From the IMG/VR virus record IMGVR_UViG_3300017968_001235, positions 1-64,000 of that record: a DNA stretch of 64,000 nt; one strand, given 5' to 3'. The translations under genes and the position numbers were made by a program. Numbering within the stretch: the first letter of the stretch is position 1; each line of letters starts with the position of its first letter. Source of the stretch: a virus. Positions 41,293-61,780 of this stretch are shown piece by piece. The notes under the pieces are model-generated. The model worked only from the letters and a program-made list of their open reading frames with translations, did no database searches and was not told where the DNA came from.

Positions 41293-42327
41293 ATGAGATG
41301 CAAATATTTAGATAACCAAATTAATGTTGGAACTGACGGTCAGTATCGTCTTTGTTGTATGAGTTTAGAACCACCTAACAAGTATAACATCCGTACACAT
41401 ACTCCACAAGAATGGCACGACAGTGAATTCCATAGAGGCGTTAGAGAGCAAATGGAAAGAGATGAATGGCCAGATGCTTGTAAACGTTGTCAACATATGG
41501 AAGAACGAGGACTAGGAAGTCAGCGTCAAAAAACACGCAGGTATGGCCCTGGTCTTAGTCATTTAGATATTCGTGTAGGTAATAGTTGTAATTTAAAATG
41601 TATTAGTTGTTGGCATATGAGCAGTAGCAGTATTGCTGAAGAAGCCATTGCTATGAAAAAAGCAGGCATTGAACCATTACATGGTATTCTTGAAGTTCCT
41701 AATTTTAACTGGGGTACTGAAGAAGCATTTGATAAATTATTAGATTTGCCTTTACAAGAAGTGTATATGACAGGTGGCGAACCTATGATGGTAAAACACT
41801 TGCCTACTTTTTTAGAAAAACTTGATAGATCTGTAACAATTAGATTTAACACTAACTGCACTATTTGGAATCCTAAACTTGAAAAACTTTTAAGAGAATT
41901 TAAAATGGTTATTATGAGTTTTTCTTTAGATGCAACTGATAGACGTATTGATTATATTCGTCATGGCTCTAAATGGGAAGAAGTAGAACGTAACGCACTA
42001 CGTTGGGCAGACTTTTGTAAAGTTGATATTAGTCCAACAATTAGTATTTTAAACGCATGGTTCTATGATGATATTAAAGAGTATGCAGACAAACAAGGTT
42101 GGAAAGTTTTTGAAAACTTATTAATGTTACCTGATTGGTTACATATTAAAAATGCTCCTGACGAACTTAAAAAGCAATTCCAAGGAGTTGACAAATGGTC
42201 TAATGATCCTGCTGATCCTGAAATTATTGAACACTTTAAAAGATGTATAACAAGATTAGATAACTTTAGAAATATGCATATTAAAGATTATCTACTACCG
42301 GTGGCAAAAGCATATGGACTTGATTAA
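41293..42327 (+). CDS. Twitch-type radical SAM protein
   Basis: A 344-residue radical SAM enzyme. The N-terminus has cysteines (RLCCM, ACKRC) of the half-SPASM 'twitch' type, and the CxxxCxxC cluster motif is CNLKCISC (about 98-105). MTGGEPMM (about 158-165) is the GGE motif, and a later IRFNTNCT strand follows. Such enzymes bind a [4Fe-4S] cluster and an auxiliary cluster and often modify peptides. It heads a plus-strand unit with the kinase-like protein and two propeller proteins, and its 3' end overlaps the next gene by 14 bases. Confidence 0.85.
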   Translation: MRCKYLDNQINVGTDGQYRLCCMSLEPPNKYNIRTHTPQEWHDSEFHRGVREQMERDEWPDACKRCQHMEERGLGSQRQKTRRYGPGLSHLDIRVGNSCNLKCISCWHMSSSSIAEEAIAMKKAGIEPLHGILEVPNFNWGTEEAFDKLLDLPLQEVYMTGGEPMMVKHLPTFLEKLDRSVTIRFNTNCTIWNPKLEKLLREFKMVIMSFSLDATDRRIDYIRHGSKWEEVERNALRWADFCKVDISPTISILNAWFYDDIKEYADKQGWKVFENLLMLPDWLHIKNAPDELKKQFQGVDKWSNDPADPEIIEHFKRCITRLDNFRNMHIKDYLLPVAKAYGLD

Positions 42328-42769
42328 AGAAAATAAACAAAAGAAAAGAAGCGTATATAAACTTGAAGACCGTTATAGAAAGGTCTGGCACTTTAGTGAT
42401 CCACATTGGTTAGAAGAACACGTTGATCTAGTTGAAGAAGTAAATCCAGGATATATTATAGGACAACATTGTGACGACAATGAAATGTATATTGATATGC
42501 TACCAATTGAAGGTACTCCTGCTAGTCAATTTCAACATACTCCTGAGTTTATGAAAAAGATTTATCACTTCTGTATTGACAACATTAACGAAACATCACC
42601 ATACGCACACGGTGACTGGGTACTAAGTAATATTATTATTAACGGTGACAAAATGACACTTGTTGATTGGGATAATGTAAACTTATATCCACCTCACATG
42701 GTATTAGAAAAAATGCAAGACGATTTAAAAAGTGCCTTTGGAGATAAATTTGACCCCGCAAGCCTTTAG
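42314..42769 (+). CDS. APH-like kinase fragment
   Basis: A 151-residue protein. AHGDWVLSNIIINGDKMTLVDWDNV (shortened) carries the Brenner motif HGDxxxxN and the metal-binding DWD pair of the aminoglycoside/choline kinase family, about residues 98-122. The ATP-binding N-terminal lobe (about 100 residues) is mostly missing. It could need a partner, or act as a compact small-molecule kinase. Genes on both sides overlap it, so it is part of the radical SAM and propeller unit. Confidence 0.6.
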   Translation: MDLIKENKQKKRSVYKLEDRYRKVWHFSDPHWLEEHVDLVEEVNPGYIIGQHCDDNEMYIDMLPIEGTPASQFQHTPEFMKKIYHFCIDNINETSPYAHGDWVLSNIIINGDKMTLVDWDNVNLYPPHMVLEKMQDDLKSAFGDKFDPASL

Positions 42770-43988
42770 TTACCCTACTGTTGCAAACAATGGATTTATC
42801 TATTGTGCGCCTTACGGATTAAACGATGTAATTAATTACATGATAAAGTTTGATCCTAACACGTATCAAGTAACTCGGATTCCTTTAGAAGTTAATAACT
42901 CTACAGAAAAATGGCAGAATGGTATTGTTTACCGTAACTTAATTTATTTTCTACCCTATAATGAAAGTAAAATATTAGTGTTAAACACAGATGACGATAG
43001 TGTAGAATATATTGAATTAAATGTTGTAGGAAGAGGAAAATATATCCAAGGACATATTTTTGATAATCGTATAATTGCATTGCCGTACGGCGAACACGAG
43101 TCATATAACTGGGCATTAGATTTCAATATGGATACTAATGAAGTTAAGTTAAATTATTTAGAAGTAGATGACGATACTAAACGCTGGCACACTACACAAA
43201 TGCTAGACGGATACATAATTGGTTTGCCGCGTGGAGAAGATTTAGAAACACATTTTAATCACGGCATTGTATATGACTGCTTTGATAATTCTTATGAACT
43301 AACAAATTTAGTTGATAAATGGGCAGACTACGATAAAGAAAAATACTGCAACAAAAAATTTACTACTGTGGCAAAAGCAAACAAAAAATTATACGCTCCG
43401 CCGTATAGCGAATATCCTGGGTTTGATATTTTAGCAACTTATAAAACTAGATCTTTTGCTACTAGCGAATCTTGGTCTTTTACAAAAACTGGTATTACGT
43501 CTACTAGCAGAAAGTACTTTACACACGTTGTTGCTAGTAATGGCAAAATATTCTTTCCACCGGCAGGACACGACGAAGACTGGAGTGAAATGTTAATTAT
43601 TGATAGTAACACAGACAAGTGGCACATTAAAGATTTAGGCATAGGCAAAGAAAGTAAAAAATATTTTGCTGGGGTAGAAAACAGTCAAGGTAAATTGTAT
43701 TTTATTCCAAGAGGTGGCTGTGTATGTGAGCCTGAGGATACTTGGAAAAGTCAAGGCGACCTAGCAGAAGTATTAGTAGTAGATACAAATACAGAAGAAC
43801 ACTATACAGTCGATGTTGGTGAATACTTTAAAGACAATACTACTATTGAAAAATATAATAAATGTGTTATAATTAACGATATTATATATGCTTTTCCATA
43901 CGGAGAAAGCGACAGTTTCCAAACTATATTAGTGTTTGACACTATTAAAGAAAAAGTTATCAAAACAATAGACTTAAACAATGTATAA
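42750..43988 (+). CDS. Beta-propeller repeat protein
   Basis: A 412-residue protein. I chose TTG 42750 with ggag 6 bases upstream over GTG 42732; both overlap the kinase-like gene. It has eight copies of a (I/L)-Y-x-x-P-Y-G-E block, such as FIYCAPYGLND, LIYFLPYNESK, RIIALPYGEHE, YIIGLPRGEDL, KLYAPPYSEYP, KIFFPPAGHDE, KLYFIPRGGCV and IIYAFPYGESD, spaced about 45-60 residues apart. This is a kelch-like propeller, perhaps eight-bladed. A pair of cysteines lies in CVCEPED (about 328). Its 3' end overlaps the next propeller gene. Confidence 0.75.
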   Translation: MTPQAFSYPTVANNGFIYCAPYGLNDVINYMIKFDPNTYQVTRIPLEVNNSTEKWQNGIVYRNLIYFLPYNESKILVLNTDDDSVEYIELNVVGRGKYIQGHIFDNRIIALPYGEHESYNWALDFNMDTNEVKLNYLEVDDDTKRWHTTQMLDGYIIGLPRGEDLETHFNHGIVYDCFDNSYELTNLVDKWADYDKEKYCNKKFTTVAKANKKLYAPPYSEYPGFDILATYKTRSFATSESWSFTKTGITSTSRKYFTHVVASNGKIFFPPAGHDEDWSEMLIIDSNTDKWHIKDLGIGKESKKYFAGVENSQGKLYFIPRGGCVCEPEDTWKSQGDLAEVLVVDTNTEEHYTVDVGEYFKDNTTIEKYNKCVIINDIIYAFPYGESDSFQTILVFDTIKEKVIKTIDLNNV

Positions 43989-45117
43989 AGCATTTGAAGA
44001 TTTTTATAAAGAAGCACGTATTAGACATCTTGTACTAGAAGTAAACAAGGACGAATTAGTTAGTCCTCCATTTGGTACTCAAAACAATCCGTCATACGAT
44101 ATGTGTGCATTCTATAAAGATCACACCACACTTGTATCACTTGATGTTCCAAATGCAACTAGCAAATTTAATGCAGTCGGTGTTACTGACGATAGCATAT
44201 GGCTTATACCTTATGGCATTTATGATGACTTAAATGTTGTAGTACAAATAAAAGATAAAACGCCTATCTATCATAAACTAGATAAAAAAGGCAAAGGACA
44301 ATTTTATAGTGTTGCTAGTCACGGCAATACCGCTTGTAGTTTTCCATTAGGTTATGAAGATACGCAATTCTTGATTTACATTAACAATAATAAAGTTAAA
44401 ACTATCGACGTTGACACAAATGAAAAGAAAGCACACATGGGTACTGTTTATTGTAACGGAAGTTATTACAGTATGCCAAGAGGTGAAAGTGTTCATTATT
44501 CAAACATACTAGAGTTTGACGGTAAGAAGGTAATCAAACACAAATTGAATTTACCTAAAGTATCACGCAAATATACTGATGCTGTTGTTGTAGGTAACAA
44601 ACTTTTTAGTTTACCATTTGGCGAAACAGCAGGATTAAATGAAGTAATTGAGTTTGATACAAAAACAAAAGAATACAGATTATGGAAATTAAACGTAGAC
44701 GACTTTGCTAAAAAATATAACACACAAGTATTAGTTGATGATGTTATTATTGGATTACCGTACGGTGATGAAGATAGTAATGATAGCGATAAAGGTATAA
44801 TCTTTGATACTATTACAAAAGAAAGTTTTCAATTTAGTATAAAAGAATCTTATGGTGGTAAATTTAGATATCGTAGTGGTATTGCTTATAAAGGGTCTGC
44901 ATACTTTTTACCAGCAGGAACCCCAGGGTGTGCCCTTTATAAAATTGACACAAACGGTATTTGGATATCAAAAACATATCCAGATAATTTAATGTTTGGA
45001 AGACCTGTAATTTACAACGATGAAATACATACTATTGTATATAACACGCACGATAACAGTTCCAATTTAGTAAAATTAAATGACTGTTTAGACATAGAAA
45101 CGGTGTCTATACTATGA
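43981..45117 (+). CDS. Beta-propeller repeat protein
   Basis: A 378-residue paralogue of the preceding gene, which it overlaps by 8 bases. Repeats carry SIWLIPYGIYD, TACSFPLGYED, SYYSMPRGESV, KLFSLPFGETA, VIIGLPYGDED and SAYFLPAGTPG at about 50-residue intervals. No catalytic motif is seen. The two tandem propellers may form one complex. They lie between two radical SAM genes (41293 and 45114), which makes them candidate substrates, but this is only from position. Confidence 0.7.
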   Translation: MYKAFEDFYKEARIRHLVLEVNKDELVSPPFGTQNNPSYDMCAFYKDHTTLVSLDVPNATSKFNAVGVTDDSIWLIPYGIYDDLNVVVQIKDKTPIYHKLDKKGKGQFYSVASHGNTACSFPLGYEDTQFLIYINNNKVKTIDVDTNEKKAHMGTVYCNGSYYSMPRGESVHYSNILEFDGKKVIKHKLNLPKVSRKYTDAVVVGNKLFSLPFGETAGLNEVIEFDTKTKEYRLWKLNVDDFAKKYNTQVLVDDVIIGLPYGDEDSNDSDKGIIFDTITKESFQFSIKESYGGKFRYRSGIAYKGSAYFLPAGTPGCALYKIDTNGIWISKTYPDNLMFGRPVIYNDEIHTIVYNTHDNSSNLVKLNDCLDIETVSIL

Positions 45118-46232
45118 AGTGTTACGCACCTTGGCATAGTATTTTGGTACGTTTTAATGGTGATATTGTACCCGACGGAGTGTATGCAAATCGCTACGGT
45201 AACGTGCTAGAATCGTCTTTAAACACCGTCTTAAACAGCATTACAGCGTCATACACAAAGGATTCTATACGTAAGGGTCAGTTACCACCCGAGTGCGATA
45301 AATGCCGCTTAAAAGAGGCTACAGTAGGTCATAGCAGGCGTTTATTCTTCCGTGATATACTAAATCCAATGTTGGAAAATACCAATTACGATTACACCAA
45401 AAACTTCCATGACATATACTTTTTGGAATTCAATATGAGCAATATCTGTAATTTGAAATGTCGTATGTGCAATGGTATTAGTTCAAGTGCTTGGGTCAAA
45501 GAAGAATTGAAATTGGCTGAACTAAACAAAGATTATAATAGGCCAGTAGATCATCCAGAGTTTGGTTATACAAATAAAAGCGATCAAATTATTGCAAAAC
45601 TATTTGAAGATCCTACACCATTTATGAACTTGCGTTACCTAAGCATCAAAGGCGGGGAACCGTATATGGAACCTTCAAACAAAACTATTCTTAAAAAGTT
45701 TATTGACTTAGGTATTGCTAAAAACATTACACTTGATTGGACTACTAATGGAACCATTGTTGACGATGAAGTACACGAACTTGCAAAACAGTTTGGCCAT
45801 ACAAAATGGACCGTAAGTGTTGAAGGAACTGGTAAACTATACGAATATATTAGAGGTGGAAATAATTTTACGTTTGAGCAATTAAACGAAAATCTAAAAC
45901 ACTACAATTTTGATAGAGTTATTATTGCTGTTACTGTTATGGCGTATAATATTGCACACTTACATAAAATTCAAGAATGGTACGATAGTGTTAAAAAAGA
46001 TAATTGGTCAATCTACTTTAATAATGTAGTTGTACAACCGCCATATCTAAATCCAAGAGTTTTACCTAACAGCATTTTAGAAAACATTGAACACAAATTT
46101 GATTTTGTAAATTATACAAATAATGATACAAATTTAACTGAAACTTTTGTACAGTATACAAAAGATCTCGATAAGTTACGCAATACAAACGTACTTGATC
46201 ATTGTCCTGAACTTAGTAGTCTGTTTGAATAG
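45114..46232 (+). CDS. Twitch-type radical SAM protein
   Basis: This protein has 372 residues. An N-terminal half-SPASM segment (CYAPWHSILVRFNGD, then PPECDKCRLKE) precedes CNLKCRMC (about 112-119) and the GGE motif in IKGGEPYMEPS (about 176-186). VEGTGKLYEYIRGG (about 237-250) resembles the SAM-binding region of the RSAM twitch proteins at 50183 and 59248. It overlaps the propeller gene by 4 bases. Its 3' end overlaps the convergent SDR gene by 20 bases. Confidence 0.85.
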   Translation: MKCYAPWHSILVRFNGDIVPDGVYANRYGNVLESSLNTVLNSITASYTKDSIRKGQLPPECDKCRLKEATVGHSRRLFFRDILNPMLENTNYDYTKNFHDIYFLEFNMSNICNLKCRMCNGISSSAWVKEELKLAELNKDYNRPVDHPEFGYTNKSDQIIAKLFEDPTPFMNLRYLSIKGGEPYMEPSNKTILKKFIDLGIAKNITLDWTTNGTIVDDEVHELAKQFGHTKWTVSVEGTGKLYEYIRGGNNFTFEQLNENLKHYNFDRVIIAVTVMAYNIAHLHKIQEWYDSVKKDNWSIYFNNVVVQPPYLNPRVLPNSILENIEHKFDFVNYTNNDTNLTETFVQYTKDLDKLRNTNVLDHCPELSSLFE

Positions 46233-46761
46233 GATCAACAGCAAGATAATGAATGTTCATGTTACGTGGACTATCAATTAGCCATTTAACAAGTTTACCT
46301 GCGTCAAGCAAACTAATCTTTTTCCTATCACTTTTATTGTTTGTTGTTTTAGAATCAAGTTGACCAAAAGCAATATTGCTTACACGAACTTTACTATTCC
46401 CAAATGCACAATAGTTTGAATACATTTTACTTGCTTCGTCTAACGCAGTTTTACTTTCAAGATAACCTTCTGGACTATAACCGTCACGCCAGTAACTTGT
46501 TGTACTAGAAATGTTAATTATATGTAACCCTTTAAACGTTTTGTAAACTTTATGCAACAGTTTTTCTTGTCCGCTGTCTGGTATTAATAAACTATTAACA
46601 AACACATCTGCATTTTTAACATAGTCAGCAATAGCATCTAAGTCAGTCATATCCCAACCATTGTGTCTACCTATAAACTCAACATTATTATGATTATATG
46701 CTTCAAAGATTCCTTTAGAAAGGCCTTCGTAGTTTGGGTTTCCTGTTACAATTATTCGCAT
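46213..46761 (-). CDS. Short-chain dehydrogenase/reductase-like protein
   Basis: This protein has 182 residues. RIIVTGNPNYEGLSKGIFEAY is a Rossmann-type start with a TGxxxxxG-like loop, NISSTTSYW (about 92-100) carries the SDR Ser, and YLESKTALDEASK (about 108-120) the Tyr-x-x-x-Lys pair. It is shorter than a typical SDR (about 250), lacking part of the C-terminal substrate region. It may act on an NDP-sugar or a small molecule. It overlaps the radical SAM gene at 46752 by 10 bases. Confidence 0.7.
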   Translation of the reverse strand: MRIIVTGNPNYEGLSKGIFEAYNHNNVEFIGRHNGWDMTDLDAIADYVKNADVFVNSLLIPDSGQEKLLHKVYKTFKGLHIINISSTTSYWRDGYSPEGYLESKTALDEASKMYSNYCAFGNSKVRVSNIAFGQLDSKTTNNKSDRKKISLLDAGKLVKWLIDSPRNMNIHYLAVDPIQTDY

Positions 46762-47657
46762 AACTCTTTCCTAATGTATATATCGCTCAAACAACTACAT
46801 ACACTTTTACCACATACAATTTCTTTTTCGGGTAATTTGTAACGTTCTAGATTTCCTAATGCGCCGCCATATTGACAGTCTGCTCTATATATGTTTCCCC
46901 ACATATCAATATTAATTCCATCAATGCCTGCCCAACATTTCCAATTCCTAAAACGATTTTTACTTTCTGATATTAAATCATTGGCAGTTACAGGTGAATC
47001 ATCTAACAGCAATTCTCCTCTGTGTAACTGTGCGTCTGGAAGGTTAGTAAAGAAAGGCCAATTCTTAATTGTGTCTAATTGGTCTTGTGTGTAGTTTGCT
47101 GGTGTATTTGTAATTGCATCTATGTTAGACTTATCTAAAATTATTTTAGGCCATACACTAACATTATCACTGCTTGAATATAGTTCTTCTGCAATGTCAA
47201 ACATTTCATTAAAGTTTTCAGGCGACAACATTAGATTAACAAATACAGGACAATAACTTTCTTGTATTACTTCTTTAATATGTTCTAGATTAGCAAACTC
47301 TGGATGGTATGAAATAATATAACCGTCTGTGTACTTGCTTATTTCTTTGTAATATTTTACACGCTGACTGCCGTTAGTTAGAAAACTAAATGTGTGACCT
47401 TGTTTTTTTACAAGTTTAGCAAGATCTAAAAAATGTTTCCAGTATGTAGGTTCGCCGCCACTCACTCTATAACAGATTTCTTTTGGTACTTTAAAATTTT
47501 CAACAAAACGTTTTACTGTTTCCCATTGGGGTTGTCCAGTACTTCCGTTGTGTAAATGATCCGGACAATAGGAACAGCGATAGTTACACTTGTTACTTAA
47601 TGTCCAACTAACAAGAAACCATTCTTCTTTTGCTTTGTTTTGGTACTCTAATTTCAT
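46752..47657 (-). CDS. Radical SAM protein, SPASM-like C-terminus
   Basis: A 301-residue radical SAM enzyme. SNKCNYRCSYCPDH holds the CxxxCxxC cluster motif CNYRCSYC (about 23-30), and RVSGGEPTYW (about 62-71) the GGE motif. A Cys-rich C-terminus (NWKCWAG, RADCQYG, CGKSVCSCLSD) suggests one or two auxiliary Fe-S clusters. The same layout is seen in 53366, so the two are paralogues. It overlaps an Asp-hydroxylase gene by 4 bases. Substrate unknown. Confidence 0.85.
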   Translation of the reverse strand: MKLEYQNKAKEEWFLVSWTLSNKCNYRCSYCPDHLHNGSTGQPQWETVKRFVENFKVPKEICYRVSGGEPTYWKHFLDLAKLVKKQGHTFSFLTNGSQRVKYYKEISKYTDGYIISYHPEFANLEHIKEVIQESYCPVFVNLMLSPENFNEMFDIAEELYSSSDNVSVWPKIILDKSNIDAITNTPANYTQDQLDTIKNWPFFTNLPDAQLHRGELLLDDSPVTANDLISESKNRFRNWKCWAGIDGINIDMWGNIYRADCQYGGALGNLERYKLPEKEIVCGKSVCSCLSDIYIRKELCE

Positions 47658-48310
47658 TCTGCCATTGTGTTGTCTAGTATTAATTTTTGTGTACGCTCAT
47701 TTAGTTTTACTGTTAAAATAAGACTATACAAGTTATCACTAAAACTAAACACACTATGATCTAATTGGAAGTTTGTGAAGTAAACATACCCTGCTTCTGG
47801 ATATAAAGGTTTACCGTCAACTAACTGTACATAATTCTCAGGACTGCATCTGCCAAATACTACTAATAGTCTAAAGTATTCTGGACTAGTTCCGTGAAAA
47901 TCTCTATGTGGTGGGAAAAATCCACCTTGATCAATACGTAATAAATGTACACGCCCGATGTCTGGCGAAAATATATCTACTAGTTTTGCAATTTCAGGAA
48001 TTTTATTATACACTTCTGTAGGTGTATTAAAGTTTTCTTCCTTCATTTCAACATTGTGATATTTTTGCATATGGCCAAAACTATTAAGATGATAATTGTC
48101 CATTACATCACCTGAATGACTAGTTACAGGTAATCCCCAACGATTATTATGCTTGTCTTTTTTAACATTATAAGGACACCAGTTATTTTTAAACTGTTCT
48201 AACTGCTGTTCAACAGCATGATGATCAATATGCCATTTGAGTTTTACTTGGTTACCTAGATTAACTAGGCTTTGCCAACGCAACGCTCTTTCTATTTCAT
48301 TTTGATCCAT
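47654..48310 (-). CDS. 2OG oxygenase-like protein, missing the usual Arg
   Basis: A 218-residue Asp-hydroxylase-type protein. GGFFPPHRDFHG gives HRD (about 137-139) and QLDHSVFSFSD the distal His (about 184), but the place of the 2OG-binding Arg has NLYSLIL instead of the usual pRIHx. The metal site looks complete. It may use a different 2OG anchor, another oxidant, or be inactive. Translation is coupled to the radical SAM gene at 46752 and overlaps 48297 by 14 bases. Confidence 0.65.
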   Translation of the reverse strand: MDQNEIERALRWQSLVNLGNQVKLKWHIDHHAVEQQLEQFKNNWCPYNVKKDKHNNRWGLPVTSHSGDVMDNYHLNSFGHMQKYHNVEMKEENFNTPTEVYNKIPEIAKLVDIFSPDIGRVHLLRIDQGGFFPPHRDFHGTSPEYFRLLVVFGRCSPENYVQLVDGKPLYPEAGYVYFTNFQLDHSVFSFSDNLYSLILTVKLNERTQKLILDNTMAE

Positions 48311-48938
48311 TATATTCCTTTCCGTAACTGTCGCAAACTAGTTGCATAACACCGCTCCAATCATCAATTGGTTCGCTGTGTATAATTATATGTATCCTTG
48401 GTTCATTACTTTTGTTCATAACCTGGTGCATACTTCCTAAATCAATTAGTCTTGCTTCGCCTTCTTGCCATTCTACATTACCATAATTTTCAATATCAAA
48501 TATTGTACCTTCTGGATGCGTTATAGCAACATTAATACCGGCTAACAGTTGTCCATTTGGATAGTCTTTATGCGGACTAATATGCCCACCCGGGTCAACT
48601 ATCATTATTCTTACCCTACCGTACTTTTTAAAAGGTATATTCTCAGTAATCCATTTTTTAGTTAAAGGAAAATACTTTGCAACATCAGTCCAAGTTTTTT
48701 CTCCTAACATAAATCCCTTTTCTTTGTATGCTTGATCACTGTCGGTCATTGTTGAACTATGACCGTGTAGTGTTAAACTACGCCACCCTTTACCATAATC
48801 TTCTCTATGTGGTACTGCAAGATGTAAACTTTGCAATATTTCTTCTCGCATAGCACCGCTTGGCTTTGGTACATCTAATCGTAATGTAGCAAGTCCGCTT
48901 TCATGTCTAATCCAATTAAACTGTTCGACTAGATCCAT
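48297..48938 (-). CDS. Asp/Asn hydroxylase-type 2OG oxygenase
   Basis: A 213-residue enzyme. DPGGHISPHKDYPNG shows HKD (about 122-124), GSMHQVMNKS the distal His (about 174) and EPRIHIIIH the Arg (about 185). It is closest in plan to 40526. It is followed by the oddly altered paralogue at 47654, so the pair may act together. The 3' end of the upstream methyltransferase-like gene overlaps its start by 10 bases. Confidence 0.8.
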   Translation of the reverse strand: MDLVEQFNWIRHESGLATLRLDVPKPSGAMREEILQSLHLAVPHREDYGKGWRSLTLHGHSSTMTDSDQAYKEKGFMLGEKTWTDVAKYFPLTKKWITENIPFKKYGRVRIMIVDPGGHISPHKDYPNGQLLAGINVAITHPEGTIFDIENYGNVEWQEGEARLIDLGSMHQVMNKSNEPRIHIIIHSEPIDDWSGVMQLVCDSYGKEYNGSK

Positions 48939-49612: not shown

Positions 49613-50192
49613 TTTCAATTTTATATAACGGCATTGCAAACTTTTTGCCATCATATTCCACTTCAACATACTTTTCTACAAGACCTATGTGCCACGAATC
49701 AATAGTATTATCTGTTATAGTTAAATTGCCACTAGTAATATTTCCATGTGTAATTAAATTTCCTTTACTATCAAGTTTTAATCTAGCACTCATATCGTCA
49801 TTGTCAGATAACGCTATAATCATTTCAGTAGCAACTGCACCTTGTTTATTATAATCGTCTGCTACAAAAAATTGGATAGCGCCTGTTAACGGACTTTCAC
49901 TATGACAGTAACCTAAACTATTGCCTGGTTTAGTTCTTGCGTAAACTTGAAACCCACCCAATGTATCACCTGCTTCAACTGGCAGTTTGTTAGTTTGATC
50001 TCCACGCGATTTAGAAAGTCCAATAAAGATAGGCGACTTTCCATCTGTAGCACCGTCAAGATATAATAACTGTTCGTTAGCACTTGAACGTACAACCAAG
50101 TGTCCGTTTTCTGTGTCTGTACCAATTATAGTTTGTTTGTGTAGTTCGTTTGGGTCAATATCATCGCAAACAATTTTAAATCCTACTTCCAT
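49605..50192 (-). CDS. Fibre-like virion protein
   Basis: A 195-residue beta-rich protein with a TDTENGHLVVRSS segment, an Asn/Gly/Thr-rich KGNLITHGNITSGNLTITDNTI stretch (about 148-169) like the repeats of the tail fibre at 31578, and a C-terminus WHIGLVEKYVEVEYDGKKF. It lacks an enzyme motif. Such sequences usually build phage fibres or receptor-binding tips. It is embedded in a run of modification enzymes, overlapping a radical SAM gene by 10 bases, so it may be their substrate. Confidence 0.6.
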   Translation of the reverse strand: MEVGFKIVCDDIDPNELHKQTIIGTDTENGHLVVRSSANEQLLYLDGATDGKSPIFIGLSKSRGDQTNKLPVEAGDTLGGFQVYARTKPGNSLGYCHSESPLTGAIQFFVADDYNKQGAVATEMIIALSDNDDMSARLKLDSKGNLITHGNITSGNLTITDNTIDSWHIGLVEKYVEVEYDGKKFAMPLYKIENE

Positions 50193-53369: not shown

Positions 53370-54346
53370 AGTTTTACCTTTGGTATTTTGTTATCTGCAC
53401 TACTAACACAAGTATCAGTAACGCATTTAGATGGTGTCTTAAACAGCGTAAAACCGTGTGTAAGTGTACCTAATGGTTCGTCACTACAACTATATGCCCT
53501 CTTAACTTCATTACCACGTATAATACAACTTTGATATCCTGCATTACAGTTCCACCCTTTAAACTTATTAAATCCAAAAGCATTAAACCGTTCTGCTTGA
53601 TCTATTTCGTATTTTATTCCATCATTTGTTTCGAGGCGAACTTGTGCGACTTCTTCTCCGTCGATTTCTTGCGGGAATCCTGTTTGTAATTTTTCCAGTT
53701 GATCATCTGTATAACCAGAGACCACAAATGACGCAGTAGGATCTGATTGCGGCTTGAGTGTGACATGAATTCCCCTTTCATTTAATCTTGCACATCTATC
53801 GTAATATTCGTTAAAGTGTTCTGGAACCATAACTTGATTAACTGTTACAAGTGTATTATTTTCCATAAGCATTAAACACTTATCACCAAATTCTTTTTCG
53901 TCAGCAAACTCTGCATGATAACTTGCTGTTAAACTTCTTCTATCCATAACAAAGGTTTTATCTAACCAACGCATCCACCATGACTTGTTAGGAGATAGAT
54001 TAGTTGTCATGTGAATACTTAAATATGGACTTTTAAAATCTTCATAGTATTGAATTAGTTCAAGTAGGTGTTTGTATGCTGTTGGTTCACCACCACTAAA
54101 ACTAAAATGAAATTTGCTAAATCCGTTATCATTTGCTTGGCGTTTAATTTCATCTATTGTGTGTTTATATGTCTGCAAACTAAAGTGATCTGGTTTGTCT
54201 GTATTAGCATAAGGCCAGCAGTAACTACATTTGTAATTACAAAATCTTCCTAGTATCCAACTAACAGAAAACACGCCTTCGTCAAGCATTGTTTTTTGAC
54301 CGAAGCGTGTAATCTTGTCAAATGGAATTTTTTGAAAATTGCTCAT
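53366..54346 (-). CDS. Radical SAM protein, SPASM-like C-terminus
   Basis: A 326-residue enzyme. GRFCNYKCSYCWPYAN holds CNYKCSYC (about 33-40), and FSFSGGEPTAYK (about 82-93) the GGE motif. The C-terminal Cys-rich region (GWNCNAG, SCIIRGN, AYSCSDE and CVTDTCV) resembles that of 46752, its paralogue. Overlaps the GT-like gene at 54318 by 29 bases, making a coupled glycosyltransferase-radical SAM pair like that at 60413-62664. Confidence 0.85.
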   Translation of the reverse strand: MSNFQKIPFDKITRFGQKTMLDEGVFSVSWILGRFCNYKCSYCWPYANTDKPDHFSLQTYKHTIDEIKRQANDNGFSKFHFSFSGGEPTAYKHLLELIQYYEDFKSPYLSIHMTTNLSPNKSWWMRWLDKTFVMDRRSLTASYHAEFADEKEFGDKCLMLMENNTLVTVNQVMVPEHFNEYYDRCARLNERGIHVTLKPQSDPTASFVVSGYTDDQLEKLQTGFPQEIDGEEVAQVRLETNDGIKYEIDQAERFNAFGFNKFKGWNCNAGYQSCIIRGNEVKRAYSCSDEPLGTLTHGFTLFKTPSKCVTDTCVSSADNKIPKVKL

Positions 54347-55001
54347 GCAACCAATCCCAATCGTTTATAAGTTTTAAAGACTCAGGCTCATTACGGTGAG
54401 CAAGACCAAAGTCACTACCACGGCGAGCACCATCGATACAATAGTTTCCGAATGGTCTGTCCATGCCTTTTTGACACCAGTCAGTAAGTCTAAATAAAGT
54501 TTCTTCATCTTCTTCTCTATCAATGATTTTACTAGACAATTTTACACATTCTCTAAATGCACTTTTCCAAGTATTAAAAGGATCTGTATTAAAAGCAGTA
54601 ATATTGCTAACTTGATCCATTGCTTTAAAGTTATCACTAATACTTGTTGTCATATCAACTGTCTCAGTATTCATTTTTAGTGTTAATGACCGAGGTAATA
54701 ACTTTACTCCGCCATACCCATAAACTAAATCATTTACAGGATTTTCACAACGCCATACGTGAACTGTATCTACATTGTACTCGTCAACTTCGTAACTAAA
54801 ATCAAAGTCATCTTTAATAATAGCATCACCGTCTACCACCCAAAACATTTTTGTAAAACATTTTTTTGCCGCGGCAATATGTGCATTATGAATTCCTTTT
54901 ACACCATGAACACGTTTAGCCATAGGAAACTTTTCTTTTAACTTTGCATATACTTCATCTGCATTGGGTTCTTGCCAACTTATAAAAACTATATCATACA
55001 T
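54318..55001 (-). CDS. GT-A type glycosyltransferase-like protein
   Basis: A 227-residue protein, start ATG 55001 (TTG 55010 is possible). FVVDGDAIIKDDF-type FWVVDGDAIIKD (about 54-65) carries the DxD nucleotide-sugar motif, KRVHGVKGIHNAH (about 30-42) is shared with the paralogue at 61777, and the Trp/Asp-rich C-terminus is also shared. It is smaller than typical GT-A enzymes. Sugar donor and acceptor are unknown. It precedes and overlaps the radical SAM gene at 53366. Confidence 0.7.
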   Translation of the reverse strand: MYDIVFISWQEPNADEVYAKLKEKFPMAKRVHGVKGIHNAHIAAAKKCFTKMFWVVDGDAIIKDDFDFSYEVDEYNVDTVHVWRCENPVNDLVYGYGGVKLLPRSLTLKMNTETVDMTTSISDNFKAMDQVSNITAFNTDPFNTWKSAFRECVKLSSKIIDREEDEETLFRLTDWCQKGMDRPFGNYCIDGARRGSDFGLAHRNEPESLKLINDWDWLHEQFSKNSI

Positions 55002-55902
55002 ATTTTGCAATATCCTCTGCTAGTTGTTTTTGTATATGTCTATCAACATGACAGTTATCTGGAAACTTATCACTTTTATTCATTAGGTCAATAACAACTT
55101 CGTAATCTTCAACAATGCTTCTAAATTCTGTTTCTATACCTTCTGGAATATCCGGAATGTTTAGTTCAGGTCGTTGTCTAGCAAACATACGTAATGCATC
55201 TGCCGCATTTTCTGTTAGGTCGGGTCTACGTCTACGTACATTTTCTGCTGTACCCCAAGAACTAATTAACGGAACCGGACGTTCTATAATACTATCCATC
55301 CATCCGCGATGAACGTGTTTAATAAAAGTGTATTGTGAAATATCTTCTGGTAATTTTCCCCAGCCTTCAATTACTAACCATGGAATATTAGTTTCTTCAT
55401 AAATTTTTTGTGCGCCGTCTAGTGCAATTTTAAGCAGGCCGTCATTTATTTCTTTAATTGACTTTGCTTCTGCTACTAGCGGATCACTTTGTTTATGATA
55501 CTTCTCTAAATCATACAAGCCTGCTTCATCTGGCCATAAACTTCTTTTTAAATCTCTACAAGGCTCTGTTAGCATCCATATAATTAAATCAGGATTATAA
55601 AAAACAGGACTTGTAAAGCAAGGTGCTAATCCTAGTGCTTCTTCAACTTTAAAAATACTTTCGAAATTTCCTGCTCCGCCAAAAGCATAGTTAACTGTAC
55701 AATGACCCATTTGATCTAAATGATAACCAAAGCCTGGCCAAACAACTTGAAAAGGTTTAGGAAAATCACCGCTTAAATATTTTTCTTTATTCCAAGGACG
55801 AAACACTTCTGGATCGTTGTTGTTAGCACACCCCGGCCCAGGAATAATTGTTCCCCACTCACCTAGTGCATTGCTATCACCAACTATTAAAATTTTTTTC
55901 AT
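54994..55902 (-). CDS. SGNH hydrolase-type protein
   Basis: A 302-residue protein. ILIVGDSNALGEWG (residues 4-17) is a clear GDS block I. A Gly/Ala-rich AFGGAGNFES (about 73-82) could be block II, and the C-terminal part has an Asp-x-x-His pair (DNCHVDRHIQ, about 280-289). Typical relatives are acyl-esterases or acetyltransferases acting on sugars. It is followed by a glycosyltransferase and preceded by a UDP-sugar dehydrogenase (4-base overlap), so a role in glycan decoration fits. Confidence 0.7.
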   Translation of the reverse strand: MKKILIVGDSNALGEWGTIIPGPGCANNNDPEVFRPWNKEKYLSGDFPKPFQVVWPGFGYHLDQMGHCTVNYAFGGAGNFESIFKVEEALGLAPCFTSPVFYNPDLIIWMLTEPCRDLKRSLWPDEAGLYDLEKYHKQSDPLVAEAKSIKEINDGLLKIALDGAQKIYEETNIPWLVIEGWGKLPEDISQYTFIKHVHRGWMDSIIERPVPLISSWGTAENVRRRRPDLTENAADALRMFARQRPELNIPDIPEGIETEFRSIVEDYEVVIDLMNKSDKFPDNCHVDRHIQKQLAEDIAKYV

Positions 55903-57071
55903 CTTGTATTACCATAATGATACACTTTAAGCGTATCAGACTTAAATTCTCTCCACGGGTCAACAACAATACTATCGTCGTTGAGGAAACAATAAAGTTT
56001 AGGATGTGCTAGTAAAACAACTGCACTAAAAGGACCTTTTTGCGGACTTGCTAAAGGATCGACTTCAATACAGTGATATCCTAATTCTTTACAGTAGTGT
56101 CCTACAAGCAAACTATAACTTCCGTCTTTGTATGGAACATCAGGCTTATACGCAATTCCATTTAACAAAATTGGCAAGTCATTTGCAGAAGCAAGTTTTA
56201 CCAAATACTTTGCCATATTTTTTGCTTGTACTTCACGTGCATTCATTATAGCATCAAATAGGTCATATTGCAAGTCTAATTGTTGTGCCATAAAACGTAG
56301 AGCAATGTTATCTCTTGGGTGACAAGCACCGCCATCGCCCATACCTGCTTTCATATATTTTGGACCCATTATACGTTGTGTACTTTTTGATAATGCTTCA
56401 GTAACTACATCAACATCAATATTACCTTGACGTTCTGCAACATCTTGAATCATATTAACGAATCCAATTTTAGTACTAATAAATGTGTTGTAAAAAACTT
56501 TAATACATTCACATTCGTCCCAAGTACCAACTTCGTATCTTGGTTTGTTTTCCATTATTGTTTTATAAAAATCAATAAGTTCTTTTGCATCGCCTGTCTT
56601 AGATCCGTCTTCGGTTCCAATCATAACCATTTCAGGATTTACCATATCCCAAGCAACTGTACCCATTGCAATTAAGTATGGATTATAAACAAATCTTGGA
56701 TTAGTAATATGCTGTACAAATTCTCTACGTACTGTACCAGGAAGAACTGTGCTAATAAGCACAAGTAATTGACTGTTATTCATATGTCTGTTTGCTTCGC
56801 GTACTACATCAATTACAATATCATACGAAAAATCTTTTGGTTCTAAATGTGCTGTCGGTTGCTTACCGTCATAGTCTGGATGATGGGGTGTAGGTACTGC
56901 AATAAAAACAATATCTCTATCATGTACTGCTTCTTTAATAGTTTCTTTTACTGAAACTAAATCGCTCTTAACATCAACTATGTCGTAACCGCTGACATTG
57001 TGTCCTTTTTCTGCAATAACTTCTGCACAAGGTAAACCTAATTTACCCAAACCAATAAATCCAATATTCAC
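55899..57071 (-). CDS. UDP-glucose/GDP-mannose dehydrogenase family protein
   Basis: A 390-residue protein with a complete fold. NIGFIGLGKLGLPCAE (Rossmann GxGxxG, residues 2-17), AVPTP (about 58-62), STVLPGT (about 108-114), and GDGGACHPRDN (about 245-255), which has the catalytic Cys of the family. ILLNGIAYKPDV (about 299-310) is the usual C-terminal signature. It oxidises an NDP-sugar to a uronic acid. The last gene of the minus-strand run, with a late-type divergent promoter upstream. Its product could feed the glycosyltransferases nearby. Confidence 0.9.
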   Translation of the reverse strand: MNIGFIGLGKLGLPCAEVIAEKGHNVSGYDIVDVKSDLVSVKETIKEAVHDRDIVFIAVPTPHHPDYDGKQPTAHLEPKDFSYDIVIDVVREANRHMNNSQLLVLISTVLPGTVRREFVQHITNPRFVYNPYLIAMGTVAWDMVNPEMVMIGTEDGSKTGDAKELIDFYKTIMENKPRYEVGTWDECECIKVFYNTFISTKIGFVNMIQDVAERQGNIDVDVVTEALSKSTQRIMGPKYMKAGMGDGGACHPRDNIALRFMAQQLDLQYDLFDAIMNAREVQAKNMAKYLVKLASANDLPILLNGIAYKPDVPYKDGSYSLLVGHYCKELGYHCIEVDPLASPQKGPFSAVVLLAHPKLYCFLNDDSIVVDPWREFKSDTLKVYHYGNTR

Positions 57072-57105: not shown

Positions 57106-57110
57106 CATAG

Positions 57111-57117
57111 TATTTAT
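57111..57117 (-). promoter_or_regulatory. Late-type promoter (ATAAATA), minus strand
   Basis: On the minus strand 57117-57111 reads ATAAATA, pointing toward the UDP-sugar dehydrogenase gene (ATG 57071), with ggagaa before it. Together with the plus element it forms a compact back-to-back late promoter pair. Confidence 0.6.
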
Positions 57118-57131
57118 TGGAACCCAGAAAC

Positions 57132-58400
57132 ATGAATCGCATCATTGGCTTTTTTCAACATAACGATTTTTTATCGTGTCCGCAAAACACTCTAACCTAT
57201 GAGTTTTTAAAAGAAGAATTTAACAAAAGTGGTATTGTACACAAGGACATTACCATTTATCAAGGATTGATTAAATATCCTAGATGGCCAAAAACTGCAC
57301 CAATTTTTAGACAAATGCGTTTATCTCATCTACGTCAACTGAAAAAGGATAAGAAAACATTTTTTATCTTTGATGCAAGTACCGAGGGCTTTAGCACAAT
57401 TTACGATCAACCATTTTTTGATGTACTGTATTTTAATTGTAAAGAACACGGTGTTGATCCCGAAAGAGTAATTTATATTTCTAGTAATATGCTAGATCAT
57501 GATAATTTAAAAAGATACAATCAAGAACACGGAATTACTAGAAGCATTAAACTAATGTGCTTTAACAATTTTGAATCTATGTTGTTTGGTGTGCAAGGTG
57601 CAAATCTTATTGTGGACCAACACGGTGATATTAATGAACAAGCAAACAAAAGATTAAAAGCAAGTAAAAAAGGAACCAAGTCAAAATTTAAGAATAAACT
57701 ATTCTTAAGTTTAAGTAGAGTTAATAGACCACATAGAACATTGTCTGCTTGGGAGATATTTCACGGTGACTACTTGTTTGACGGCCTTATAAGTCACGGA
57801 AACTTTAATTCTAAATATTTTAGTTGGGATGGTTATGTTAGTCAAATTCCAGGCGACCACGGTATTGAACCTAAACACTTAAGACGCTGGAATAAAACTG
57901 TATTACCTTTAGTTGCAGACACAGAAGATTTTATTACAAACCATGCTATGTTCCTTAATACACACTTACACGATCAAACGTTATTTCAAATAGTTAACGA
58001 AACGTTTGCTGAAAACTGGCAAGGTACTAGTCAGTTTTGGAGTGAAAAAACATTTAGATCAATGTTTCATATGCAACCATTTATTATTTGGGGGCAACAA
58101 GGTGCAAACAAAAAGTTGCAAGAGTACGGCTATCAACTTTTTGACTGCTTTGATTATAGTTTTGATGACGAACCAGACGATTATAAACGCTGGAAAAAGA
58201 TTTATGCAGAACTAGAAAGAGTAGTCCTTCAATTAAGAAATATGACTTGGGAAGAACAAGTCAAATGGAAATATGCAGAAAGTGATAAACTGTTAAATAA
58301 TTTTAAAACAATGTTAGCAGGTAAACATACAAGAGCACAATTTTTTGATTTGTGTAAATACATGAGAGATACAGCAGATGGCAAAACAATTAATTCATAA
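57132..58400 (+). CDS. Phage-conserved protein, possible glycosyltransferase
   Basis: A 422-residue protein starting at ATG 57132. The C-terminal half has LFLSLSRVNRPHRT and IVNETFAENW, then SEKTFRSMFHMQPFIIWGQQG, a pattern I know from many ocean phages (EKTF, PFI, G). Its distribution beside glycan genes suggests a GT-B-like transferase, but no catalytic residue is known. It begins a short plus-strand pair with the SGNH gene, which overlaps its end by 23 bases. Confidence 0.55.
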   Translation: MNRIIGFFQHNDFLSCPQNTLTYEFLKEEFNKSGIVHKDITIYQGLIKYPRWPKTAPIFRQMRLSHLRQLKKDKKTFFIFDASTEGFSTIYDQPFFDVLYFNCKEHGVDPERVIYISSNMLDHDNLKRYNQEHGITRSIKLMCFNNFESMLFGVQGANLIVDQHGDINEQANKRLKASKKGTKSKFKNKLFLSLSRVNRPHRTLSAWEIFHGDYLFDGLISHGNFNSKYFSWDGYVSQIPGDHGIEPKHLRRWNKTVLPLVADTEDFITNHAMFLNTHLHDQTLFQIVNETFAENWQGTSQFWSEKTFRSMFHMQPFIIWGQQGANKKLQEYGYQLFDCFDYSFDDEPDDYKRWKKIYAELERVVLQLRNMTWEEQVKWKYAESDKLLNNFKTMLAGKHTRAQFFDLCKYMRDTADGKTINS

Positions 58401-59253
58401 TAAACCAAAAAGAATCTTTACATTTGGTTGTAGTTTTACTTCATATATTTGGGGTACTTGGGCAAATGTTATCGGAGCAGAATTTCCTGAGGCTGAGTTT
58501 AGAAACTTTGGTCGTTCGGGTGCAGGTAATCATTATATTTTTAATTCGCTAATGCAGGCAGATGCTGTATATAATTTTACACACGAAGACCTAGTTATTG
58601 TACAATGGACTAATGTTTGTAGAGAGGATAGATATCTTCCTCAACGTGACGGTTGGCTTGTGCCGGGTAACATTTACACACAAGGCGAGTATGACGAAAA
58701 GTGGGTGCAAACTTGGTTTAGTGAGTATGGTGCTTACGTTAGAGATTTTGCATTCATCTATGCGGCAAACGAACATCTAAAACATAAAACACAATTTCAT
58801 TTCTTGCAAATGATGAAAATTGTTGACTACACCGATCAATGGAACTTAAACAGACGCACACAACATCATGATAAAATTAAAAAACTAGCAGACATCTACA
58901 GACCAGTTCTTGAAACTATACAGCCTAGTTTTTACGAAGTTCTTTGGAACAACGATATTCAAAAGAAATTTAAACAAGATAGAAAAACTGTAAACAAAGA
59001 TTTTCAAGACGGTCATCCTCATATAGTTGAATATTACAATTATCTCAAAGCAGTTTTTAAACATAACTGGCGTGACGAAACCGATGCCGCAGTAGCCGAA
59101 AGTTTTAAAAAGTGGGTTACAATGATGAACGGTGCAAGTAAAGGTGTTCCAAAGTTTCATATTTACAGTTCAGGACAAAGATTTGTTGATAGTTGTAACT
59201 ATGAACTTAGATTGCGTCAATCAGATCAATTAGAACCAATCTTGCATTTATAA
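58378..59253 (+). CDS. SGNH-like protein
   Basis: This protein has 291 residues. IFTFGCSFTSYIWGTW (about 13-28) resembles the GDS block I with Cys-Ser, followed by GRSGAGNHYIF (about 44-54, block II Gly/Asn). A late Asp/His pair is not certain. It is similar in plan to the protein at 20629. The 3' end overlaps the convergent radical SAM gene at 59248 by 6 bases. Substrate unknown. Confidence 0.5.
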   Translation: MAKQLIHNKPKRIFTFGCSFTSYIWGTWANVIGAEFPEAEFRNFGRSGAGNHYIFNSLMQADAVYNFTHEDLVIVQWTNVCREDRYLPQRDGWLVPGNIYTQGEYDEKWVQTWFSEYGAYVRDFAFIYAANEHLKHKTQFHFLQMMKIVDYTDQWNLNRRTQHHDKIKKLADIYRPVLETIQPSFYEVLWNNDIQKKFKQDRKTVNKDFQDGHPHIVEYYNYLKAVFKHNWRDETDAAVAESFKKWVTMMNGASKGVPKFHIYSSGQRFVDSCNYELRLRQSDQLEPILHL

Positions 59254-60426
59254 TAATTCAGGAAAAGTTTCAGCAAAACTTCTTTTACGTATTTGATCGT
59301 AGTAAGAATTTTTGTTTGCCCATATAGCATTATGGTCTGGATTATATTCTACATTGCTAATATACTTTAACACACTATTAATAGTTTCTTTGTGTTCTCT
59401 ATTAGTTATTTTATTGTAATATTCTTCTAAACGTTGTTTTGCGTGTTGTAGTTTTTCTGTTGGTACTGCTGAAACACTATAATGTACAGGATCAACAAGA
59501 TTATATAAAGTACAACTGTTTACGTCAAATCCATTATCTGTCATATATTCTAAAAAGTCTACAAGTGTAACAATATTAAATGCACTTACTACTGCATTAA
59601 AACTCATAATTACGTGAGGACATTCTTTTTTAATAAAATTAAGATTCTCAATAATCTTATTCCAGTCAGTTCCTTCTCTAATGTATTCTGCTTTAGAACC
59701 ATAATGATCTAAACTTGCTCTTACTTGTACTTTTTTAAATTGTTTCCAGTAATCTGTTACAAGTTTACCTTTATAAGTTAGGTTACTTAAATTAGTATTG
59801 TATTGTAATATTGCATCTGTTTTATTTTCAGCAATTAAATAATCTAAAATTTCGTAATGCTTATCTGTTACTAACGGTTCGCCACCTGCAAAATAAAAAT
59901 CTTCAATATCTTTTAAATATGGCTTAAACTGTTCAAACAAACTGTCATTAGAATCTCCTCCTGCAAATGTATATACAGGAACGTTCTTTCCGTTCGCATT
60001 ATCTTCTATTGCCCAACTTGAACTGTATGTTGCACTACACGTTCTACATTTAAAATTACAAATATTACTCCAGCGTACATCAAAGTAAAGTAATTTCATT
60101 ACGTCTAAACTGCCGTCTTGATTAGTTAGTTCACGCACACCTAAATGCTTAGAAAACTTTTTATTATTTTCTTTTCTAAAACTCCAAACATCACTTGCTT
60201 CATGTGCCCAGCATTGCGAACATTCGTTTGGTTGTTCACCATTTAGTAATGCAAGACGTAACTTTTTGTATGCTTCGCTATTCCAAATTTCTTTAATAGT
60301 ATTATGTTTAGTATTTCCTAAAGGTTTGTCCCACTTACCAATACAACAAGGTAACACATTGCCATCTGGATTGACATACATATGGCTCCAGGGTAATATA
60401 CAAAATGTATCTTTACTTGTACTCAT
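59248..60426 (-). CDS. Twitch-type radical SAM protein
   Basis: A 392-residue enzyme. The N-terminal segment (FCILPWSHMYVNPDGNVLPCC, then ECSQCWAHE) precedes CNFKCRTC (about 125-132), with FAGGEPLVTD (about 177-186) the GGE motif and SLDHYGSKAEYIREGTDW (about 235-252) as in 50183. It starts within the upstream radical SAM gene (14-base overlap). The repeated twitch plan in 41293, 45114, 50183, 59248 and 60413 suggests one expanded family in this phage. Confidence 0.88.
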   Translation of the reverse strand: MSTSKDTFCILPWSHMYVNPDGNVLPCCIGKWDKPLGNTKHNTIKEIWNSEAYKKLRLALLNGEQPNECSQCWAHEASDVWSFRKENNKKFSKHLGVRELTNQDGSLDVMKLLYFDVRWSNICNFKCRTCSATYSSSWAIEDNANGKNVPVYTFAGGDSNDSLFEQFKPYLKDIEDFYFAGGEPLVTDKHYEILDYLIAENKTDAILQYNTNLSNLTYKGKLVTDYWKQFKKVQVRASLDHYGSKAEYIREGTDWNKIIENLNFIKKECPHVIMSFNAVVSAFNIVTLVDFLEYMTDNGFDVNSCTLYNLVDPVHYSVSAVPTEKLQHAKQRLEEYYNKITNREHKETINSVLKYISNVEYNPDHNAIWANKNSYYDQIRKRSFAETFPELL

Positions 60427-61780
60427 TATAAAATTGCTCTAATTCTGGAAATACACTAACAAGATTAGTTCCGCGTCTACGATCGTATTCTGTAAACCAA
60501 CGTGAGAAATCTCTACGTGCTTGTTCTAGTTTTTCAGGTTCATAATTAGTAGTTGCCATATAGTCTACAACACGTCTAAACTTTTCATATTCTAAACTAC
60601 TAAACTTTGTGTTGTCATTATCATCTTTAAAACGCTCTATTAAATCTAAATGGTCTTGCATATATGGCATAAACTTTTCTTTAGGTAAAATATTCATGTC
60701 AAAGATTGTAGGTTCTTTTAAATGTGGAGTATCAAATCTAATACGTTGCCATTGTGTTGCATTTTCATTATTATATTTTACACGCCAATCTAAAATCTTT
60801 GCTAATAGCAAACTAAAACTTGTAACAGCAAATAAATTAAATGTAATCATAAATGTTACAGGAAAGTTTGTATTAGTTAGATAGTAATCTAAGTTCTTTT
60901 CCCATAGTTCAATATCTAAACCAGTACGTGTATATTCTGCACGTTCACCCCAAGTATCTATACTTGTATAAAGTTTAAAACTTTTAATACAATTCTTTTC
61001 TTTTAGTGTGTTAATGCGTTCTACAAGTTTTTCTACTAGTTTAGTTTTAACACCCATATTGCTGTTTACTTCGATTTGAATATGTGGCTTAGGATCTGCT
61101 TCCAACTCGTCGAAAAGTCTCCAAGTACTCTTGTGCATTAAAGGCTCACCTCCCGTAATTCTCAAAATATTAAGAGTCTTGGAGACTTCCGGCCACCAAT
61201 CCCACCATGCTTTCACATAGGGGTTTGATTCTTCATTATCATATAACTCAAACCAGTCAATGTCTTGCCTATGTGCTGTTGACATTTTATATGGTCCATG
61301 TTCTTTAATCTCATTATAGTACCTACTGCTAAACTTAGGATGGCAATAACCGCATTTAAAATTACACTCATTACTAAAGTTAATCTCAATATACTCCGGA
61401 TTTATGTTAAAATCCGCCCCTTTTTGTTTTATTTCCGTAATTCTTTCGGGTCTATAGATACTCGTAGTTTTGATATGTCTATCACTAACAAAGTCTTTGC
61501 CCATTGCTTCGATCTTCCAGCAATAGTTACAACCTTCTGGCTTTTGTCCACATAACATCTGCTTACGTTGTTCTTTTTTCTCTTTAGTGTTATGCAATGC
61601 ACTTGGATTATCTTTTAATTCTTCTAATGGTATAGGGTGCGGAGCAGGATGATAACAACTATGTGTTTCACCTGTTTGTAAATAGATAGTAGTATGATGC
61701 CACTTTGCTAAACAAAAAGTAGGAGATGTTTCCTCTTCTACTATCGGCATTATTTCTTTAATTTTATCTAGTTCGCTCAT
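60413..61780 (-). CDS. Twitch-type radical SAM protein
   Basis: This 455-residue protein is the largest radical SAM protein of the window. The N-terminal cysteines (FCLAKWHHTT, HSCYHP, GCNYCWK) precede CNFKCGYC (about 137-144), with RITGGEPLMHKS (about 206-217) the GGE motif and YTSIDTWGERAEYTRTG (about 269-285) the SAM-binding strand. It overlaps the GT-like gene at 61777 by 4 bases and 59248 by 14. The chemistry is unknown. Confidence 0.88.
   Translation of the reverse strand: MSELDKIKEIMPIVEEETSPTFCLAKWHHTTIYLQTGETHSCYHPAPHPIPLEELKDNPSALHNTKEKKEQRKQMLCGQKPEGCNYCWKIEAMGKDFVSDRHIKTTSIYRPERITEIKQKGADFNINPEYIEINFSNECNFKCGYCHPKFSSRYYNEIKEHGPYKMSTAHRQDIDWFELYDNEESNPYVKAWWDWWPEVSKTLNILRITGGEPLMHKSTWRLFDELEADPKPHIQIEVNSNMGVKTKLVEKLVERINTLKEKNCIKSFKLYTSIDTWGERAEYTRTGLDIELWEKNLDYYLTNTNFPVTFMITFNLFAVTSFSLLLAKILDWRVKYNNENATQWQRIRFDTPHLKEPTIFDMNILPKEKFMPYMQDHLDLIERFKDDNDNTKFSSLEYEKFRRVVDYMATTNYEPEKLEQARRDFSRWFTEYDRRRGTNLVSVFPELEQFYNEYK

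Follow-up and report, generated by a model that had tools for sequence, protein, structure and literature searches.

The virus record IMGVR_UViG_3300017968_001235 is an 83,934-base genome fragment from a large, uncultured T4-like phage of marine origin, and its bases 1–64,000 (the window) were analyzed here. An earlier note had drawn attention to eight radical S-adenosylmethionine (rSAM) proteins encoded between positions 41,293 and 61,780, and all eight genes were recovered as intact open reading frames (ORFs), named R1–R8 in window order (Table 1). They belong to a coherent island that is wider than this interval, spanning about 34–64 kb. The DNA polymerase of the record falls in phage DNA polymerase families, with Sinorhizobium phage Phosso (51% identity) and Agrobacterium phage Atu_ph07 (47%) as its nearest isolates, and related viral records reach 185–268 kb. 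On its right flank, the island is followed by fibre and collar-like proteins and then by a 3420-aa structural protein that contains a head-closure Hc2 (phrog_460, gp14-type) piece. With these flanking genes, and within a record that is a fragment, the position of the island resembles that of the pelagimyophage host-recognition cluster.

The division of the eight proteins into five with an N-terminal twitch and three with a Cys-rich C-terminus, as first described, is supported by family scores. R1, R2, R4, R7, and R8 pass the curated cut-off of 170 bits for N-terminal-twitch rSAM proteins (NF033640), while R3, R5, and R6 score below it (19.7, 61.9, and 35.9 bits), carry additional Cys at the C-terminus, and are classed as other rSAMs. 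The general rSAM family PF04055 is matched above its cut-off by seven of the eight, the eighth (R8) reaching 28.0 of the required 29.5 bits and being recovered by its NF033640 score. The motif CxxxCxxC is present in all eight proteins and GGE in seven, exactly as the earlier note stated, with GDP in its place in R5. Both patterns persist among 41–105 distinct homologues per family, CxxxCxxC being kept in 100% of sequences in all families and GGE in 100% in seven. In an alignment of 26 N-terminal-twitch sequences, C15, C91, C94, C147, C151, and C154 are invariant and C33 nearly so; R2 lacks one auxiliary Cys of this set. Median dN/dS values of 0.06–0.11 across the rSAM families indicate strong purifying selection. 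Because the motifs are kept in homologues and selection is strong, the eight rSAMs are very probably working enzymes, and full-length family scores together with dN/dS rule out chance motif matches as the source of these calls. No equivalog model of a known metabolic rSAM is matched at its cut-off by any of the eight, nor is one of a known maturase of ribosomally synthesized and post-translationally modified peptides (RiPPs), for which cross-hits were sub-threshold only. A ninth, QueE-like rSAM (phrog_2076, 22668–23561) is a separate gene outside the island.

Table 1. Features of the island in window coordinates. Relatives are viral homologues counted after removal of near-copies at 90% identity.
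Feature	Position	Strand	Evidence and context
Left arm: one Trp-halogenase-family and four Asp/Asn-hydroxylase-family proteins, with unknowns	34183–41224	-	PF04820; PF05118 x4
Trp-halogenase-family protein (left arm)	34183–35409	-	PF04820, 248.8 bits
Asp/Asn-hydroxylase-family genes (left arm)	at 35393, 37254, 38430, 40526		PF05118
R1, N-terminal-twitch rSAM, 344 aa	41293–42327	+	NF033640, 217.6 bits
Small kinase-like protein	42314–42769	+	HGDWVLSN...VDWDN motif; weak PF01636 (APH), E = 0.0014, below cut-off
Propeller A, Kelch-like	42732–43988	+	about eight FPYG/PPYG-type repeats in sequence; weak Kelch, E = 0.0076
Propeller B, Kelch-like	43981–45117	+	upstream of R2 in 12/20 relatives
R2, N-terminal-twitch rSAM, 372 aa	45114–46232	+	NF033640, 227.6 bits
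Short-chain dehydrogenase/reductase (SDR)-like oxidoreductase	46213–46761	-	YLESK motif only; adh_short E = 0.077; downstream of R3 in 13/36 relatives
R3, rSAM, C-terminal Cys-rich, 301 aa	46752–47657	-	PF04055, 44.2 bits
Putative Fe(II)/2-oxoglutarate-type hydroxylase	47654–48310	-	HRD...H by eye; no Pfam match; upstream of R3 in 18/36 relatives
Asp/Asn beta-hydroxylase-family protein	48297–48938	-	PF05118, 51.1 bits
Fibre-like protein	49605–50192	-	no family match; downstream of R4 in 3/43 relatives
R4, N-terminal-twitch rSAM, 443 aa	50183–51514	-	NF033640, 422.9 bits; AlphaFold2 (AF2) pLDDT 87.9
R5, rSAM, C-terminal SPASM, 328 aa	51477–52463	-	PF04055, 38.5 bits; PF13186, 25.4 bits
Methyltransferase-like protein	52456–53058	-	PF13649, E = 0.0032, below cut-off
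R6, rSAM, C-terminal Cys-rich, 326 aa	53366–54346	-	PF04055, 47.1 bits
GT54, predicted GT-A-fold glycosyltransferase (GT)	54318–55010	-	VDGD motif; AF2 model and Foldseek
SGNH/GDSL-like protein	54994–55902	-	GDSN motif only; no Pfam match
UDP-glucose/GDP-mannose dehydrogenase family	55899–57071	-	PF03721 and PF00984, E about 1e-19
Putative GT-B-type glycosyltransferase	57117–58400	+	FWSEKTFR motif by eye only; unsupported by PDB-sequence, Pfam, or PHROG comparison
SGNH-like protein	58378–59253	+	GCSFT motif only; adjoins R7 in 10/19 relatives
R7, N-terminal-twitch rSAM, 392 aa	59248–60426	-	NF033640, 371.4 bits
R8, N-terminal-twitch rSAM, 455 aa	60413–61780	-	NF033640, 322.8 bits
GT61, GT54 paralogue	61777–62664	-	alignment with GT54

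Profile scans placed viral relatives of R7 at 188, of R2 at 52, of propeller A at 42, and of R6 at more than 590 places, and the conservation of neighbours across phages, set beforehand as a test, is evident as strong adjacency among non-redundant relatives. The kinase-like gene comes next after R1 in 20 of 21 relatives. Propeller B and R2 form a module that faces an SDR-R3-hydroxylase module. GT54 precedes R6 and the methyltransferase follows it, each in 28 of 46 relatives, and R5 precedes R4 in 21 of 43; modules such as GT-rSAM-methyltransferase-rSAM-rSAM are found repeatedly in hundreds of marine viral contigs. GT54 or GT61 stands before R8 in 17 of 23 relatives and R8 before R7 in 12 of 19, this module facing the SGNH-like gene, and in one phage locus R8 and R7 are a single ORF. 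Among 14 large records, 8–10 rSAM genes were counted in ten and two or three in four; the rSAM-rich lineages number about seven, since part of the large records are near-copies of one another. A search of 50,697 isolate phage records returned nothing for R6 or GT54, and the isolate-phage matches of R4 and R7 were confined to Vibrio and one marine record. HemC (porphobilinogen deaminase; L124:10675-11514) is also encoded within rSAM islands at 14 viral loci, in most cases next to R4 or the methyltransferase.

Several genes associated with these modules are predicted to act on sugars, and GTs and sugar-nucleotide enzymes are linked to rSAM genes, as in a surface glycan island. GT54 was confidently modeled (AF2 pLDDT 91.1), and its Foldseek matches are glycosyltransferases (RmlT, WrtF, PGANT9, and SunS; E 6e-5); a GT-A-fold glycosyltransferase is thus predicted, with TM-scores only about 0.4 (TMq). 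Five loci of relatives encode a 3-deoxy-D-manno-octulosonate-8-phosphate (KDO-8-P) synthase (E 3e-80 to KdsA), with u62 on one side and GT61-R8-R7 on the other. Between R8 and the GT-B-like gene, most of 16 loci in relatives have a StrB-type inosamine-phosphate amidinotransferase (E 6.6e-62), the gene next to R8 in these arrangements not being R7. A nucleotidyltransferase-like gene, often accompanied by a HAD phosphatase, is found near R4/R5 in relatives, and a nucleotidyltransferase-like domain joined to a QueC-type domain was seen in phage islands (L209:5944-7332). Fusions also occur: R5 and GT54 form one 635-aa ORF in a single Oligoflexia genome, and two GT54/GT61-type domains are encoded together in a single ORF in several phages and in one Bdellovibrionales genome. 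Wzx/Wzy/ligase export or polymerization machinery was not recognized among the island ORFs, a role in which host machinery could serve.

A counterpart of the island exists on bacterial chromosomes. A scan of cellular genomes was made with a narrow R4 alignment, a broader one having given no usable pattern, and the R4 homologues detected (43–50% identity) belong almost only to Bdellovibrionota. These adjoin homologues of R5, R6, GT54/GT61, and the methyltransferase, forming the same five-gene set, GT54-R6-methyltransferase-R5-R4, in islands that lack homologues of the propellers and the fibre-like gene. Ten genomes or bins were checked and hold 4–20 twitch rSAMs each, at least nine of those in one bin (G024) sitting on a phage contig. 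On one 917-kb Bdellovibrionia contig, an island of about 29 kb (G017:C1:745468-774900, L341–L343) holds 13 twitch rSAMs; Asp-hydroxylase-like and amidinotransferase-like genes were also seen in that island. Of 144 genomes in the class, 18 contain the R5/GT54 families, which makes the distribution of the islands patchy. Among 102 Bdellovibrionota neighbours, GT2 is the commonest family (12/102), and asparagine-synthase-type amidotransferases and one carbamoyltransferase are included. In the R6 tree, phage and bacterial sequences fall into two distinct, fully supported groups, and in R4 they are mostly separated, this not being resolved. Recent transfer between Bdellovibrionota and phages is therefore unsupported, and the clean R6 separation suggests that the sharing is probably old. 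A 'Rickettsiales' MED657 contig (G024:C6; L278, L352, L353) has fibre genes like those of the window phage and is more plausibly a phage contig placed in a genome bin than a bacterial locus. That contig carries nine twitch rSAMs and several R5-, R3-, and R6-type genes, together with TctA/TctC-like and NodU-like genes recognized by eye.

Among the other features of the island, the Asp-hydroxylases named in the earlier note as neighbours of the rSAM genes are represented by one gene within the interval first delimited (48297), most lying to its left. In the kinase-like protein, H-x-DWVLSN and DWDN are kept across 11 homologues. A GGCVCEP...TWK stretch is conserved in propeller A. Searches of PDB sequences with profiles of the propeller, the putative GT-B enzyme, GT54, and the kinase gave nothing useful. 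At 31578–32945 there is a fibre-like ORF with an Mtd N-terminus, and the adjacent 222-aa ORF (32990–33658, +) aligns to the middle part only of AMP-binding enzymes (PF00501).

The nature of the substrate is approached from gene content and from structure. Only 45 of the 20,488 bases in 41293–61780 lie outside ORFs, which leaves no room for separate RiPP precursor genes; none was found in this interval, a statement that refers to separate genes and not to peptides overlapping ORFs or encoded elsewhere. A RiPP cluster with discrete precursors was accordingly rejected. The best Foldseek matches of the R4 model are the SPASM rSAMs CteB, SkfB, SuiB, anSME, and BlsE, and BtrN is matched by the R4-type profile in its N-terminal twitch portion. 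Since peptide- and sugar-acting enzymes are resembled alike, the fold does not choose between the two substrates, and a glycan substrate is argued from context. The initial proposal of a locus tailoring peptides or surface polymers is thus retained for tailoring and for polymers, whereas peptides fit less well, because GTs, sugar-nucleotide and KDO-8-P enzymes, a StrB-type amidinotransferase, and an rSAM-GT fusion occur in the modules and precursors have no room.

From the enzyme classes and modules, which are seen directly, we infer the chemistry, its order, and its target. The favoured reading, judged somewhat probable, is that the locus is a modular glycan-tailoring island in a hypervariable host-recognition cluster, where a glycan is built or tailored. 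During infection, the GTs and the dehydrogenase would assemble an unusual glycan, with sugars supplied by the dehydrogenase and nucleotidyl enzymes and transferred by the GTs. The rSAMs would alter unactivated C-H positions on sugar units or sugar nucleotides by oxidation, epimerization, dehydration, or decarboxylation, and the hydroxylases, methyltransferase, and SGNH/esterase-like proteins would carry out finishing steps. The glycan may be destined for the host envelope, where it could mask receptors or exclude rival phages, or for virion fibres. If relatives exchange cassettes, the glycan product would differ among them; variation of adhesins, as once suggested, is conjectural. Several points tell against a glycan-tailoring island. 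The glycan is predicted from genes, and no substrate, product, or glycan has been observed; the KDO-8-P synthase and amidinotransferase occur in relatives, outside this window, and the R5-GT54 fusion comes from one genome only. An initiating phosphoglycosyltransferase, flippase, polymerase, or ligase was not recognized in the island, and the SGNH, SDR, GT-B, and kinase assignments are motif-based only. The R4 model is structurally nearest peptide-modifying SPASM enzymes (CteB, SkfB, SuiB, and anSME) as well as the sugar-acting BlsE, with low TM-scores against the PDB (<0.5), and the hydroxylases, propellers, and fibre-like protein are also compatible with protein modification.

The main rival is virion-protein maturation, in which rSAMs, hydroxylases, and GTs would directly modify phage proteins such as the fibre-like protein, propellers, and tail fibres through hydroxylation, crosslinks, epimerization, or sugars, thereby altering adsorption. 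The likeness of the R4 fold to peptide-acting SPASM rSAMs, the recurrence of propeller B before R2, the several Asp/Asn-hydroxylase-family genes, the tail-fibre genes adjoining the island, and the failure to recognize export machinery are all consistent with it. However, it is considered rather unlikely, as the modules include a sugar dehydrogenase and, in relatives, the KDO-8-P synthase and amidinotransferase, and the Bdellovibrionota islands keep the five-gene set without propeller or fibre-like homologues. A diffusible aminocyclitol-like or RiPP-like small molecule is an improbable product: although the BtrN match, the StrB-type amidinotransferase of relatives, and a carbamoyltransferase recognized among Bdellovibrionota neighbours and, by eye, on a phage contig would suit it, the 20.5 kb leave no space for precursor genes, several GTs and a KDO-8-P synthase suit a polymer better, and the gain for a lytic phage is unclear. 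That the rSAMs serve as auxiliary metabolic genes, aiding low-oxygen or Fe-S-related metabolism of the host, has been suggested for other rSAM-rich phages, namely Campylobacter phages and TARA genomes (PMC2853527; PMC5332604). It is very improbable here, given that the genes lie in fixed modules with GTs and sugar enzymes and that the metabolic equivalog models return none of the eight rSAMs at their cut-offs.

To call such phage systems undescribed would be too strong, as published work already covers T4-like phages rich in rSAMs and host-recognition islands with rSAM cassettes, though without established function (PMC7029224; PMC5332604; PMC2853527). In pelagimyophages, GTs, UDP-glucose dehydrogenase, and rSAM cassettes are located in a host-recognition cluster between VrlC and the neck gene gp14, beside tail fibres (PMC7029224). 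This pelagimyophage/cyanomyophage cluster is hypervariable and, like the island here, combines tail fibres, GTs, UDP-glucose dehydrogenase, and rSAM genes; it differs in that its rSAMs are occasional cassettes whereas those here form conserved modules, and the polymerase here is nearest Phosso and Atu_ph07 and not pelagiphage isolates. The distantly T4-like Campylobacter phages CP220 and CPt10 carry an exchangeable module of five rSAMs with an amidinotransferase (PMC2853527). The likeness to it, drawn from description and not from gene-by-gene homology, lies in the clustered rSAMs and the amidinotransferase, which here belongs to marine relatives and, by similarity, to a Bdellovibrionota island; isolate phages lack a match to R6 or GT54. 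The T4-like marine genome TARA_ERS488813_N000010, likewise rich in rSAMs and compared by description only, has 12 such genes that were read as Fe-S cluster-related metabolism (PMC5332604). NF033640, which contains five of the present rSAMs and leaves R3, R5, and R6 outside, is a sequence family without an assigned function. Gtr-type O-antigen modification, in which phage GTs change host surface sugars, has no rSAM component. The island would serve the same end, and gtrA/gtrB-like genes were not recognized in it. What appears new is the organization into modules, the existence of a Bdellovibrionota counterpart, and the fusions, no description having been found in the literature searched, which was mostly without subscription papers and preprints.

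A wider proposal, distinctly unlikely on present evidence, is that an ancient rSAM-glycosyltransferase system is common to marine phages and Bdellovibrionota, which are unrelated attackers of bacteria, and makes radical-tailored glycans of a class not seen before, which attachment structures or envelopes would carry and which would be used when meeting Gram-negative cells. In marine phages, rSAMs are common and have so far been catalogued as metabolic genes with no function assigned. With the modules, the counterpart on chromosomes, and the rSAM-GT fusion, the action of N-terminal-twitch rSAMs on a sugar or glycan becomes a testable proposition. If such action is real, it would add to known glycan chemistry and account for part of the variable host-recognition region in abundant ocean viruses.

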